A stretch of DNA of 64,000 bases, taken from positions 39,649 to 103,648 of the IMG/VR virus record IMGVR_UViG_3300027770_000041, one strand, 5' to 3'. Below, piece after piece: positions 38,522-47,582 of the stretch. Position 1 is the stretch's first letter, and each line of letters starts with the position of its first letter. Both the position numbers and the translations under genes were made by a program. This DNA is from a virus. Under the pieces are notes generated by a model. That model searched no databases. It was not told where the DNA came from and saw only the letters and a list, made by a program, of their open reading frames with translations.

Positions 38522-39583
38522 TTATAAGGCATTCCCTCTTGGCATCACTTCTTCGGGAAAGTTGAAGTTTTCATGAGGTTGGTCTGCTGTTGATAACCAT
38601 GCTCTAAGACCTTCATTAAGGAGGATATTTTTTGTGTAGAACGTCTCAAACTCTGGGTCCTCTGCCGCTCTAATCTCCTGACTAACAAAGTCGTATGCAC
38701 GTAAATTAAGTGCAAGACCGATGATACCAATAGAACTAACCCAGAGACCCATAACTGGAACGAAAAGCATAAAAAAGTGCAACCAACGTTTATTACTAAA
38801 AGCAACACCGAAGATCTGACTCCAGAATCTGTTAGCAGTAACCATAGAGTACGTCTCTTCCTCTTGAGTCGGTTCAAAAGCCTTGAAAGTGTTTGCACCA
38901 TCTCCATCCTCAAATAAAGTGTTTTCAACTGTTGCTCCATGAATAGCACAGAGCAATGCTCCACCAAGGATGCCCGCTACTCCCATCATGTGGAAAGGAT
39001 TAAGCGTCCAGTTGTGGAAACCTTGAAGGAATAAAAGAAATCTAAAGATTGCTGCCACTCCAAAACTTGGAGCAAAGAACCAACTGGATTGTCCCAGTGG
39101 ATAGATGAGAAATACTGAAACGAATACAGCAATAGGACCAGAGAACGCAATAGCATTATATGGTCTGATTCCCACTAAACGTGAAATTTCAAACTGACGT
39201 AGCATAAACCCGATCAGACTGAAGGCACCGTGGAGAGCAACAAAGGGCCAAAGTCCACCAAGTTGGAACCACCTGACAATATCGCCCTGAGCTTCAGGAC
39301 CCCAGAGAAGCATAAGAGAATGACCCATAGAATCTGCTGGGGTCGATACTGCAGATGTTAAGAAGTTGCAACCTTCCAAATAACTAGAAGCAATACCGTG
39401 CGTATACCACGATGAAACAAACGAAGTTCCAGTCAACCAACCACCAAGAGCAAGATAAGCAGTGGGAAAAAGAAGGAGTCCAGACCATCCAACAAATATG
39501 AAACGATCCCGTTTAAGCCAGTCGTCGAGTACATCGAACCATCCTCGTTGTTGATTTGGAAATGAAAGTGTTGATGATGTCAT
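38522..39583 (-). CDS. psbD: Photosystem II D2 protein
   Basis: 353 residues, the size of host D2 (352). Landmarks: [20 protein letters not shown] at the N-terminus, LYGPEAQGD-type lumenal loop (here [20 protein letters not shown]), [20 protein letters not shown], and [18 protein letters not shown] at the C-terminus. Complete and intronless. It would insert in host thylakoids with D1 to keep the reaction centre working during infection. It starts immediately after the stop of the 80-aa gene (TAA ATG). Confidence 0.98.
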
Positions 39584-39826
39584 TTAATTAAATCCTTTTG
39601 ATTTTTGTTTTGTTTTTTTATCTAAGACTTCGCAATGAGATCTCAGAACATCAGGAATATTCCACCAGGCATTTCTAAGATCTTCGTAGTCACTATAAAC
39701 TTCTGTTTTTCCTGTTGTATAGCATAACTTATAGTCATGTCTCACATAAGGTTCATTTGAAGTTTGTTCAAAAAATTCAGGTAGTCCCGTCATTACACGA
39801 TCCTCTGGGGATAAGTTGCCTATCAT
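39584..39826 (-). CDS. Small protein between psbA and psbD, unknown
   Basis: 80 residues (MIGNLSPEDRVMTGLPEFFE, YVRHDYKLCYTTGKTEVYSD, NAWWNIPDVLRSHCEVLDKK). A second Met at position 12 could be the start. Its stop touches the psbD start, so the two are co-translated, but a terminator separates it from psbA. Function unknown. No membrane segment, so not a photosystem subunit by appearance. Confidence 0.65.
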   Translation of the reverse strand: MIGNLSPEDRVMTGLPEFFEQTSNEPYVRHDYKLCYTTGKTEVYSDYEDLRNAWWNIPDVLRSHCEVLDKKTKQKSKGFN

Positions 39827-39853
39827 AAAACTTTACAATTCAGTGGAAAAAAT

Positions 39854-39873
39854 AGGGGTCTTATAAGACCCCT
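39854..39873 (-). terminator. psbA: Rho-independent terminator of psbA
   Basis: AGGGGTCTTATAAGACCCCT is a perfect 20-base palindrome followed on the minus strand by TATTTTTT. It lies 21 nt after the psbA stop, so psbA can be transcribed alone at high level. Confidence 0.85.
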
Positions 39874-39894
39874 TTATTATAACATGTTTTTAGA

Positions 39895-40980
39895 TCAACC
39901 GATTGCAGGTGCAGTAAGAGCAACAGGAGTTAACTCGGCAGCAGCAAGGTCCAAAGGAAAATTATGTGCATTTCTTTCATGCATCACTTCTAAACCGAGA
40001 CCAGCACGATTAAGAATATCAGCCCAGGTGTTTACAACACGTCCCTGACTATCAACGATAGACTGGTTAAAATTAAATCCATTAAGGTTGAATGCCATCG
40101 TGGATACACCAAGAGCAGTGAACCAGATGCCTACAACAGGCCAGGCAGCAAGGAAGAAGTGAAGTGAACGTGAGTTGTTGAACGAAGCATATTGGAAAAT
40201 AAGTCTTCCAAAGTATCCGTGAGCAGCAACAATATTATAGGTCTCTTCTTCTTGTCCAAACTTATAACCGTAGTTCTGACTTTCGGTTTCTGTGGTTTCA
40301 CGAACCAATGAAGAGGTTACAAGTGAACCATGCATCGCAGAGAATAATGAACCACCGAAGACACCAGCAACTCCCATCATATGAAAAGGGTGCATAAGGA
40401 TGTTGTGTTCTGCCTGGAATACCAACATATAGTTGAATGTGCCTGAGATACCCAAAGGCATCGCATCACTAAAAGAACCTTGACCAAAAGGATACACAAG
40501 GAATACAGCAGAGGCAGCAGCAACTGGTGCTGAATACGCAATACAGATCCAAGGACGCATACCTAATCGATAGCTAAGTTCCCATTCTCGTCCCATGTAA
40601 GCATAGATGCCAATGAGGAAGTGGAACACGACGAGTTGGAACGGACCCCCATTGTAGAGCCATTCATCAAGGGAAGCAGCTTCCCAAATTGGATAGAAAT
40701 GTAGTCCGATTGCATTGGAGGAGGGGACAACGGCTCCTGAGATAATGTTGTTTCCATAGAGTAAAGATCCAGCGACAGGTTCACGAATACCATCTATGTC
40801 CACAGGAGGAGCACCGATGAAGGCAATAATGAAACATACAGTAGCAGCAAGTAATGTTGGAATACACAATACACCAAACCAACCAACATATAAACGATTG
40901 TCAGTTGAGGTTACCCACTCACAGAAATGATTCCATAAATTAGTAGTATTAGAGCGTGTAGCAATTGTAGCAGTAGTCAT
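39895..40980 (-). CDS. psbA: Photosystem II D1 protein
   Basis: 361 residues from ATG 40980 ([20 protein letters not shown]). The frame stays open upstream to 41082 but D1 always starts MTT, so the extension is rejected. Landmarks: [61 protein letters not shown] then the C-terminal extension removed after maturation. Residue 132 (position 130 in standard numbering, offset +2) is Glu in MGREWELS, as in the high-light D1 form. Intact without intron. It replaces fast-turning-over host D1 during infection. Confidence 0.98.
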
Positions 40981-41138
40981 TGAATTAAAAGGGTAGTAAA
41001 TATGAGTTCGGGGGAACGAACTGGTGACGATATTCCTACACCACCCTCCAGTGTAGGTAAAAAGACGTATTTGAATTCCCATAGGTCTTGGTTAGCGGGA
41101 ATGTGAGGAATCGTAAAGTTTTATCTTCATTTCCTAAC

Positions 41139-44998: not shown

Positions 44999-45469
44999 TT
45001 AAGAAACCCAAAGTTTTCCTTCTGCTTTTCTTCTTCGTGCTAATCCTGCTTCTACATTTGACCCAGGATTACGATAAAGATACAAAGCATCAGGAACTTT
45101 ATCCCATTCTTTATTTTTTAATCTAGCAGATATTGTAGTAAAATCTGCAGAACCATAGAAATCAGCACCGAGGTTATAAGAAAAACTAAGAAGTGCAGCA
45201 CGTTGTCCATCAGACATCTCACTCCAATAAGGTATTTTTGAAAGTGTAGGAAGAAATTCTTTTTCAATCTGAGATATCAAAAGATCATCAGCAACTTTTT
45301 GTGATATCTTTTGACCCAGTTTAAATGGTTTTCCATTCAAATCTCTGGTGCTTCCCCAACCAATAGTAATCGGAAGATTACCTGATAGAGGATCTGGATA
45401 TGCCTGTAAATGACAACCCTCAAACTCTTTAATAAGATCTACTCCTTTATTAGGAATAGAGTTTTCTAC
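44999..45469 (-). CDS. GH24 lysozyme domain, probably expressed by -1 frameshift from the C39 gene
   Basis: The frame from 45469 to the stop at 44999 encodes 156 residues: LIKEFEGCHLQAYPDP, GNLPITIGWGSTRD, then GQRAALLSFSYNLGAD and GLARRRKAEGKLW. Glu17, Asp26 and Thr35 of this segment match the T4 lysozyme triad Glu11-Asp20-Thr26. No ATG, GTG or TTG lies upstream of the catalytic Glu before an in-frame TGA at 45481-45479. A TTG at 45340 would give a product without the catalytic residues. Read through a -1 shift at 45469-45475 it forms a 387-aa C39-lysozyme protein. Likely peptidoglycan hydrolase for lysis. A simple disabling mutation is the alternative. Confidence 0.8.
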   Translation of the reverse strand, partial: VENSIPNKGVDLIKEFEGCHLQAYPDPLSGNLPITIGWGSTRDLNGKPFKLGQKISQKVADDLLISQIEKEFLPTLSKIPYWSEMSDGQRAALLSFSYNLGADFYGSADFTTISARLKNKEWDKVPDALYLYRNPGSNVEAGLARRRKAEGKLWVS

Positions 45470-45475
45470 TTTTTT
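45438..45475 (-). promoter_or_regulatory. Candidate programmed -1 ribosomal frameshift signal (C39 peptidase to lysozyme)
   Basis: The zero frame reads GTA AAA AAG TAG, giving the slippery heptamer A AAA AAG at 45475-45469, the same as in E. coli dnaX. An 8-nt spacer (TAGAAAAC) follows, then a 9-bp hairpin TCTATTCCT / AGGAGTAGA (one G-U pair) with loop AATAA. A weak purine-rich GGGGAAG lies about 15 nt upstream. Confidence 0.75.
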
Positions 45476-46161
45476 ACATCAAAGATTCTTCCCCACCCAT
45501 CATTACCATTTGGGCACCAACGAGCAGATAGATCTGATTTCTTATAGATAGCACCTTTGCCATTATAAACATCACCTGTATAACCATCATTCAAAGATCC
45601 ATAAGGGTCATTTACAACATAGTCACCACTCTGGGTCTTACCAATCACTACAACCATGTGGCCGCCCGTAGGATTAGACAAAGAACCACGATGTAGGATG
45701 CCAATAACAACAGGTTTGCCAGCACTAAGACTTTTATCAAGATCAGCAAAAGAAAGATTATAACTAAAATTTGACTGAATTCCATAATTTGCGAGAACTT
45801 TTGTCTGTACGGAATGGTCAGTTGTATCACCGATGGCAAATACTTTTTGAATATAAGCATCATCTCCTTTTGTTCCTTTAAGAGTTCCTGGCTTGAAATA
45901 CTCAAGACACATCGCACAGGCAGATGAGTTACAAGTTCGTTCTGCATTTGTATAATTATCAGTCTGTGGATAATAAGGAACTTCTAAACGAATATCAGAC
46001 TTGGGTTTTTCTATTTTTGTTCTAAAAATTCTAACCCAGTTTGAGGTATCCTCACTTAATGGTGAATCAATCAAGTCCAATTCAAGTTGCTCTACTGCTG
46101 CAACGTGTTTTGGATTCTTCTCATCGTAATACTGAAAGAATTTATGTAAGTCAATTTTCAT
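45466..46161 (-). CDS. C39-like cysteine peptidase domain protein (endolysin N-terminal part)
   Basis: 231 residues when read to the TAG. The Peptidase_C39-like core is VPYYPQTDNY, RTCNSSACAMCLEYF (Cys77 as likely nucleophile), GGHMVVVIG (His168) and YVVNDPYG (Asp185). No signal peptide. The ATG follows GGAG by 7 nt, and a late CTAAATA box lies ~85 nt upstream. The last two codons before the stop are the slippery AAA AAG, so part of the ribosomes may continue into the lysozyme domain. Suggested role: two-domain cell-wall hydrolase, peptidase cutting stem peptides and lysozyme cutting glycan. Confidence 0.8.
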   Translation of the reverse strand: MKIDLHKFFQYYDEKNPKHVAAVEQLELDLIDSPLSEDTSNWVRIFRTKIEKPKSDIRLEVPYYPQTDNYTNAERTCNSSACAMCLEYFKPGTLKGTKGDDAYIQKVFAIGDTTDHSVQTKVLANYGIQSNFSYNLSFADLDKSLSAGKPVVIGILHRGSLSNPTGGHMVVVIGKTQSGDYVVNDPYGSLNDGYTGDVYNGKGAIYKKSDLSARWCPNGNDGWGRIFDVKK

Positions 46162-46246
46162 TTTTTGTCTCCATTAAAGTAACCAATTTTTATAATTATA
46201 AGGCAAATACTCACACAAAAAAATAATAAAGTTTCTGTGTAGTACA

Positions 46247-46483: not shown

Positions 46484-46693
46484 TCAGAATACTCCAGGAA
46501 GTATTTGGCCAGTTGTCAAATAAGTGCCAACGGCAATTACAAATCCCAGCATTGCTAATCTCCCATTTAGTTTCTCAGCCCTTTGAGCATAAGTTTCTTG
46601 TTCGTGTTCTTCCATGTCTTTCTCCGTAATGTACATTTTAGGTTCGACAGCAAACATATTTTGACGATTGCCGTCTTCGGTTGTGATCGTCAT
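46484..46693 (-). CDS. hli: High-light-inducible protein
   Basis: 69 residues from ATG 46693. The HLIP core AEKLNGRLAMLGFVIAVGTY is present with the chlorophyll-binding ExxNGR pattern, followed by LTTGQILPGV. One transmembrane helix. Such proteins protect photosystem II in the thylakoid under light stress and are frequent in cyanophages together with psbA. A longer start at 46723 would overlap the SLH gene; the one chosen lies 7 nt after that gene's stop. Confidence 0.95.
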   Translation of the reverse strand: MTITTEDGNRQNMFAVEPKMYITEKDMEEHEQETYAQRAEKLNGRLAMLGFVIAVGTYLTTGQILPGVF

Positions 46694-46700
46694 ACCAAAA

Positions 46701-47582
46701 TTAGAACTTGATACCCACGCCAACGGTTCCAGTTACATTGTAACCTTGACCACTGCCATAGTTATAAGTGGCACGACCAACTCTGGTAGAACCAAAGGTT
46801 TCTGCGCCAGTTTCAGCAAAAGGAATCTTGGCATCAGCAAATAGAACAATGTTCTTTGCTACTGATACTTCGGCACCAACTACACCGACACCAGCACTTT
46901 GATTGCCACCCACCTGACCACCAGCGCCAACATAGAGGTTAGCAGCAGATACTTTAGTTCCATCGGCAAGAGTCCTACGTGAAAGAGGAATATCAAGAGT
47001 AGCAAGACCACCACCAAATACACCACCACTTACATAGTTAGGAGTGGAAGTAAAGGTTACATAAGGACGAGCAGAGATAGCATACTGATTGCCCAAATCA
47101 AGTGCCCTTAGACGACCTTGAAGTGTCACACCTGATTCATATACACGATTACCCAATGGTGTTACACCTGGATAGTTAGCAGCATTGCCAGCAAAGGCAA
47201 TACCACCATAGTTACCAACGCCTAACTGACGACGTTGTGTTGCAGTTACAGCAGCAACTTCAAGAGTGGTTACACGCTTATTGGTGGCACCAATTTGGGC
47301 ACGAAGAGATGCAGCAAGTTGTGCGTCTGCTTGTGTGTAAAATTGAGTGATGTTATCCAGACAATGATTTGTCAAAGCAAATACTTCACTGCGAGTTGCA
47401 TCAGCAGCAGGCTTCAGAGTGCCATTAGGATAACCAACAAGACATCCATAACGAGCATTGAGATTTTGGATTGCTCCATATGCCCAGTCAGTTGGTTGTA
47501 CATCTGATAAGGCAGGAGCAGCAAATGCTGGAGCAACCGCAGTCAGAGCAACAGTACCAGCAATTAAAGAACGAATAAACAT
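46701..47582 (-). CDS. Secreted SLH-domain outer-membrane porin-like protein
   Basis: 293 residues. Signal peptide MFIRSLIAGTVALTAVAPAFA (21 aa, given in two parts: MFIRSLIAG, TVALTAVAPAFA), then one SLH domain (about 24-80: LSDVQPTDWAYGAIQNLNAR, YPNGTLKPAADATRSE). A short coiled coil follows (about 80-115), then a Gly-rich beta-barrel-like part ending in Phe (VTGTVGVGIKF), as required for outer-membrane insertion. This is the plan of cyanobacterial Som-type porins but with a small barrel. GC content is higher than nearby genes, suggesting host origin. Role in infection unknown. Confidence 0.8.
   Translation of the reverse strand: MFIRSLIAGTVALTAVAPAFAAPALSDVQPTDWAYGAIQNLNARYGCLVGYPNGTLKPAADATRSEVFALTNHCLDNITQFYTQADAQLAASLRAQIGATNKRVTTLEVAAVTATQRRQLGVGNYGGIAFAGNAANYPGVTPLGNRVYESGVTLQGRLRALDLGNQYAISARPYVTFTSTPNYVSGGVFGGGLATLDIPLSRRTLADGTKVSAANLYVGAGGQVGGNQSAGVGVVGAEVSVAKNIVLFADAKIPFAETGAETFGSTRVGRATYNYGSGQGYNVTGTVGVGIKF

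Follow-up and report, generated by a model that had tools for sequence, protein, structure and literature searches.

How can a phage lysozyme be translated from a reading frame that holds no start codon ahead of its catalytic glutamate? The question is raised by a minus-strand locus in a 64,000-nucleotide stretch of viral DNA, referred to here as the window, in which the frame of a C39-like peptidase reaches a TAG stop and a GH24 lysozyme follows in the -1 frame (Table 1). The source virus is a T4-like cyanophage of the Kyanoviridae type, and the psbD and psbA genes observed in the window (38522-41082) confirm a cyanomyovirus. Upstream of the locus lie, as judged by eye, genes for a putative porin-like protein whose start is SLH-like (46701-47582) and a high-light-inducible-like protein (46484-46723).

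Table 1. Features of the peptidase-lysozyme locus, in window coordinates.
Feature	Position	Strand	Remark or basis
Shine-Dalgarno-like GGAG ahead of the peptidase start	46169..46172	-	direct reading
C39-like peptidase ORF, 0 frame	45466..46161	-	231 aa: N-terminal helical domain and C39-like peptidase, C-terminus VKK*
N-terminal domain, ~55 aa	45997..46161	-	duplicated in front of the lysozyme in relatives with two genes (tblastn of those loci)
Peptidase_C39_2 domain	45601..45987	-	PF13529 profile match
TGA closing the -1 frame upstream	45479..45481	-	direct reading
Slippery heptamer A AAA AAG, in 0 frame, adjoining the TAG	45469..45475	-	direct reading
0-frame stop TAG	45466..45468	-	direct reading
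Hairpin 5' arm TCTATTCCT	45452..45460	-	8 nt past the heptamer
Hairpin 3' arm AGGAGTAGA	45438..45446	-	also codes for the linker KGVDL
-1 frame that a slip would enter: linker and GH24 lysozyme	44999..45475	-	156 aa past KK, terminal TAA
Phage_lysozyme (GH24) domain with E-D-T catalytic set	45020..45430	-	PF00959

Domains and reading frames of the locus

The 0-frame protein matches the Pfam profile PF13529 (Peptidase_C39_2) with an E-value of 6.9e-15 and 56.3 bits, against a cut-off of 24. Residues Q66, C77, H168 and D185 are unchanged across 11 relatives, and from knowledge of the family we take C77, H168 and D185 to be the catalytic Cys-His-Asp set. No relatives of solved structure were found for the C39 domain by sequence, and the search by fold gave only weak papain-like matches, e.g. 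3erv. That its substrate is a peptidoglycan cross-link is assumed from the position beside the GH24 domain; cleavage is untested. The N-terminal domain has no Pfam match of its own, and its matches were confined to Synechococcus phages in the search made. Peptidase and lysozyme are covered as a single protein by phrog_3617.

The product of the -1 frame contains a complete GH24 domain (PF00959, E-value 2.6e-21, 76.7 bits, Pfam), and the catalytic residues E19, D28 and T37 are invariant in the -1 ORFs of the relatives. The GH24 part matches the muramidases 9kbq and 6et6 in the PDB. With both domain and catalytic set met, the product is predicted to belong to the GH24 phage lysozymes; muramidase activity is untested. 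It is the sole PF00959 match in the 103.6-kb record from which the window is taken, and three further PRF-type records (155-247 kb) likewise hold a single match each, again the -1 frame lysozyme. As the fusion of the window needs a -1 shift, a model was built for L014 instead, a fusion that is naturally in frame. The model, with a mean pLDDT of 80, a pTM of 0.49 and the GH24 half predicted best, resembles GH24 muramidases in the PDB.

Because a TGA closes the -1 frame, the lysozyme frame cannot start earlier. Between this stop and the catalytic Glu, no ATG, GTG or TTG is present in that frame of the window, and the earliest start-type codon is a TTG 128 nt past the 0-frame stop; a start codon overlapping the 0-frame stop (ATGA coupling) is absent from the window as well. 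The window and 29 other loci, 30 in all, lack ATG, GTG and TTG ahead of the catalytic Glu. The -1 frame is open as far as the TAA at 45001..44999, which gives a fusion of 231 + 156 = 387 aa. Most of what the initial annotation had claimed is borne out by direct reading, the codon scan and the PF00959 match: an end reading GTA AAA AAG TAG with the heptamer A AAA AAG, an 8-nt spacer followed by a 9-bp hairpin, a stop-free -1 frame leading into a lysozyme with no start before its catalytic set, and a product of about 387 aa. The TGA, however, had been placed 9 nt before the slip site, and is only one codon (TGT, 3 nt) away.

Three features of an X XXY YYZ site for -1 frameshifting are present, namely the phase of the heptamer, the spacing of the downstream structure and a conserved open -1 frame that encodes a domain. 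The hairpin of 9 bp, with a 5-nt loop, is by itself not significant against a synonymous-codon null (p 0.14). We scanned the window for ORFs of at least 100 aa with an in-frame slippery heptamer and a -1 frame running at least 40 codons past the stop. Five ORFs were obtained. In four of them an ATG or GTG start lies at the overlap or directly behind it; the peptidase-lysozyme ORF alone is without any such start. The arrangement in the window exceeds chance, and the relatives settle the matter decisively.

Peptidase-lysozyme junctions in related phages

As no close DNA match was found in the phage collection, conservation was studied via protein matches and IMG/VR contigs. By tblastn, 107 phage records hold the peptidase and 757 the lysozyme; four IMG/VR scans followed by a deduplicating script led to 85 distinct contiguous C39-GH24 junctions. 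The lysozyme lies at -1 in 71 of these and in frame in 14; a +1 phase does not occur. A slippery heptamer is present in 67 of the 71 -1 junctions (A AAA AAG in 60, T TTT TTT in four, C CCA AAG in two and A AAA AAA in one), while the remaining four lack one and instead have an ATG or GTG over the stop.

Three cultured phages belong to the -1 set. The junction reads GCA AAA AAG TAA in S-PM2, GCA AAA AAG CAA TGA in S-SRM01 and GTT TTT TTT CCA CAG TAG in S-CAM7, each time with the lysozyme at -1. A frameshift is annotated in none of the three records: the lysins of S-PM2 and S-CAM7 are entered as late-start fragments, that of S-SRM01 as two genes. S-PM2p157 (L001 3460-3678), for example, is annotated as a late-start fragment of 72 aa, and the full -1 lysozyme begins earlier, at the slip site.

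A different slippery heptamer is present in two separate lineages. In a peptidase tree (118 rows, quick search) the T-run site of S-CAM7 falls within the clade of in-frame fusions, and the C CCA AAG pair stands beside the two-gene clade. These positions suggest that the T-run and C CCA AAG sites arose separately, although many inner branches of the tree are weak.

Conservation of the slippery site and the stem

The initial annotation had proposed that relatives be checked for the heptamer, the hairpin and the -1 phase; all are kept, and the stem has undergone compensatory changes. A AAA AAG is shared by 39 representatives whose junctions are less than 90% alike; the third positions of NNA AAA AAG are identical in 39 of 39, and the adjacent Gly, Ile and Asp codons vary. 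The two lysine codons are otherwise used at a ratio of about 59:41, yet those of the heptamer are fixed.

In 54 distinct sequences that have no overlapping start, the stem has a median of 13 bp and a spacer of 2-8 nt, and is built from 40 different 5' arms. When the -1 reading was randomised with synonymous codons, 25 of 43 representatives folded better than their randomised counterparts at p<0.05, with a combined p of 4e-23 (Fisher's method, which ignores that the sequences are related) and a mean z of -2.0. The clade that could be aligned best (alignment A4, 20 rows) has a 14-bp stem with 98.6% pairing, and four of its pairs have changed in both arms; sliding the partner by 1-3 columns as a control left 30-48% paired and no double changes. 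Judged from these alignments, the hairpin is maintained through compensatory changes. The anatomy of the signal, its phase and the conservation of heptamer and hairpin are direct observations.

Nine side lineages (L002, L043, L049, L050, L068, L238, L246, L270 and L272) carry an ATG or GTG over the stop. This start is at -1, and AAG is missing just before the stop. In L002, L049, L068 and L238, which have the ATGA overlap, the stem is short or shows no advantage over randomised sequence (p 0.80-0.96), and the ATGA-overlap lineages are a useful natural contrast for the constraint on the hairpin.

Proposed frameshifting and competing explanations

We consider it very probable that -1 programmed ribosomal frameshifting lets this gene yield two proteins, a peptidase of 231 aa and a two-enzyme endolysin of 387 aa, and the lysozyme appears to be made by this route alone; there are no translation data. 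The majority of ribosomes would halt at the TAG and release the N-domain/C39 peptidase. Some would stall at the hairpin with AAA in the P site and AAG in the A site, where two tRNA-Lys(UUU) could re-pair simultaneously one base back, and translation would enter the -1 frame to produce the N-domain/C39/GH24 protein. Simultaneous re-pairing is the simplest account because heptamer, spacing and stem are all in place. Among 43 tRNA matches in WH7803, the host of S-PM2, there is one tRNA-Lys, with the anticodon UUU. In E. coli the condition of a single tRNA-Lys(UUU) has been linked to high slippage on AAG, the motifs C_CC.A_AA.G, G_GG.A_AA.G and A_AA.A_AA.G are among the strongest -1 motifs measured, and the stimulatory stem stands at a distance of 5-8 nt (PMC4066793). 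The slippage itself, its efficiency and the cleavage of peptidoglycan by both products at lysis are inferred, as is the fixed ratio of the two products proposed by the initial annotation.

The gene could instead be broken, or the A-run could contain a sequencing or assembly error that conceals a true in-frame fusion; the 14 distinct in-frame junctions, including those of the close kin L014-L017 with an extra A, are in line with this. Sequencing error had been named by the initial annotation as a possible refutation of frameshifting, but it fails as such, with the -1 phase shared by many independent assemblies and by cultured isolates: the 71 distinct -1 junctions come from numerous samples and from several phages in culture and include one T-run lineage, and the lysozyme residues and the hairpin are still under constraint. 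Because about 60 related viruses retain the identical slip signal, we regard the signal as a conserved device and the gene as unbroken. By the sequence evidence the error reading is already refuted at the level of the family, and we give it next to no credence. Slippage of the polymerase in the A or T run, which would supply the second frame at the level of the transcript, could draw on the homopolymer at the site, which in S-CAM7 comprises eight T. It does not account for the two C CCA AAG lineages, which have no long run, and a stem 2-8 nt downstream together with the phase of the heptamer suits the ribosome. A run of six A is also short for polymerase slippage. We therefore consider transcriptional slippage very unlikely.

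Ribosomes that terminate at the TAG might also restart close by at -1 and make a free lysozyme. The nine relatives with a start over the stop speak for such reinitiation, as does their hairpin wherever it is short or does not outperform random sequence, and in the window an AAAGGAG seen by eye is followed within a few bases by an ATT in the -1 frame, so that weak non-canonical initiation is not excluded here. This AAAGGAG, however, belongs to the 3' arm of the stem and occurs in one clade only. Reinitiation is moreover opposed by the absence, in 30 loci including the window, of a start before the catalytic Glu, and it leaves both the frozen third positions of the heptamer and the covariation of the stem unexplained; we hold it to be extremely unlikely. 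An endolysin of two polypeptides with an internal start is likewise not met at this locus, where the second product lies in another frame and no start precedes the catalytic Glu.

Relation to known recoding signals and endolysins

Programmed frameshifting at this locus would rely on a signal of a known type. The signals of E. coli dnaX and of the IS3 family likewise combine A AAA AAG, a downstream stem-loop and a single shifty host tRNA-Lys(UUU). Unlike these, the phage signal joins two cell-wall enzyme domains and mostly lacks an upstream Shine-Dalgarno sequence; a motif of this kind, an optional stimulator at such sites, lies within 22 nt upstream in only 20 of 67 loci and is not general, a point against the frameshift reading. 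The polarity in the window is IS-like, with the slip leading to the longer product. The G/GT tail assembly chaperone of lambda is also a conserved phage frameshift that gives a minor extended product, but it is a structural assembly protein and the cyanophage product a lysis enzyme.

The endolysins CTP1L, CD27L and LysP7951 consist of two polypeptides made by means of an in-frame internal start (PMC4777826, PMC9430671). They resemble the cyanophage case in that a full-length and a shorter product come from one endolysin locus. Their products share the C-terminus, however, whereas the cyanophage products share the N-terminus and differ by a frameshift; frameshifting is mentioned in neither paper. 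The portion of a broad review of frameshifting that was accessible mentions neither endolysin nor lysozyme, and no description of a frameshifted endolysin was found in the literature searched, which does not exclude an earlier report. As far as this literature shows, the use of the signal in an endolysin is new. If our reading is true, this would be, within the literature searched, the first phage endolysin with a catalytic domain reached by programmed frameshifting. The signal is present in the much-studied cyanophage S-PM2, which makes the idea testable at once.

Other arrangements of the gene

Relatives with both domains in one frame and no slippery sequence had been named by the initial annotation as evidence that would refute the frameshift. 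One-frame relatives do exist, but they are a minority, and 5 of the 14 distinct in-frame junctions retain the linker heptamer and the downstream hairpin. The in-frame fusions L014-L017, L092 and L083 read A AAA AAA G, which adds one A to the run found in the kin of the window; the other in-frame lineages (L172-L180) have neither heptamer nor hairpin. Synechococcus phage ACG-2014f (L006) has the same domain order as the window and keeps A AAA AAG and the hairpin, here 5 nt past the heptamer, with the lysozyme in frame. A -1 slip would terminate there at a TGA after KKV, and in L094 and L095 it likewise hits a TGA after KKV or KKA. Because the slip meets a stop at once in these three, they too would give both products. 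In the A AAA AAA G fusions, among them L014 and L083 (heptamer A AAA AAA), the stop would be reached after 13 residues, so that in the heptamer-bearing in-frame junctions it lies 3 or 13 codons on. In such fusions a slip would yield the peptidase-only form. The polarity of ACG-2014f, L094 and L095 is dnaX-like, the slip leading to the shorter product.

We see a real possibility, though one short of a probability, that selection favours making both peptidase-only and peptidase-lysozyme chains, perhaps as one heteromeric endolysin with a stoichiometry set by the frameshift. The persistence of slip site and hairpin in some fusions with the lysozyme moved in frame points this way, and other lineages obtain both products by ATGA coupling or by duplication of the N-domain into two genes. 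The family shows four routes to the output of one gene, namely a frameshift, an inverted frameshift, an overlapping start and two genes, and forms a natural series on the gain and loss of recoding.

The two-gene solution is found in DSL-LC02 and DSL-LC03, which have the same N-domain, peptidase and lysozyme in the same order. They differ in that the lysozyme is a gene of its own that carries the ~55-aa N-domain once more, and no slip site is present. Of seven contigs with the peptidase alone, five gave no lysozyme match and may be fragments. In the other two the lysozyme is a separate gene kilobases away (L404 1462-2094, minus strand; L405 1318-1950, plus strand), with GH24 behind a different helical N-terminus. 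Wherever it is found, the lysozyme is tied to an N-terminal domain by fusion, frameshift or a copy of its own, the overlap-start lineages excepted. We infer that this domain targets or regulates the lysozyme.

S-CRM01 was considered as a second, reversed case of a frameshifted endolysin and rejected, as its GH24 is split inside the domain and no canonical heptamer is present. The split across two frames (L007 2857-2967) is possibly a sequencing error. The ORF that follows the split GH24 resembles, by eye, an L,D-transpeptidase.
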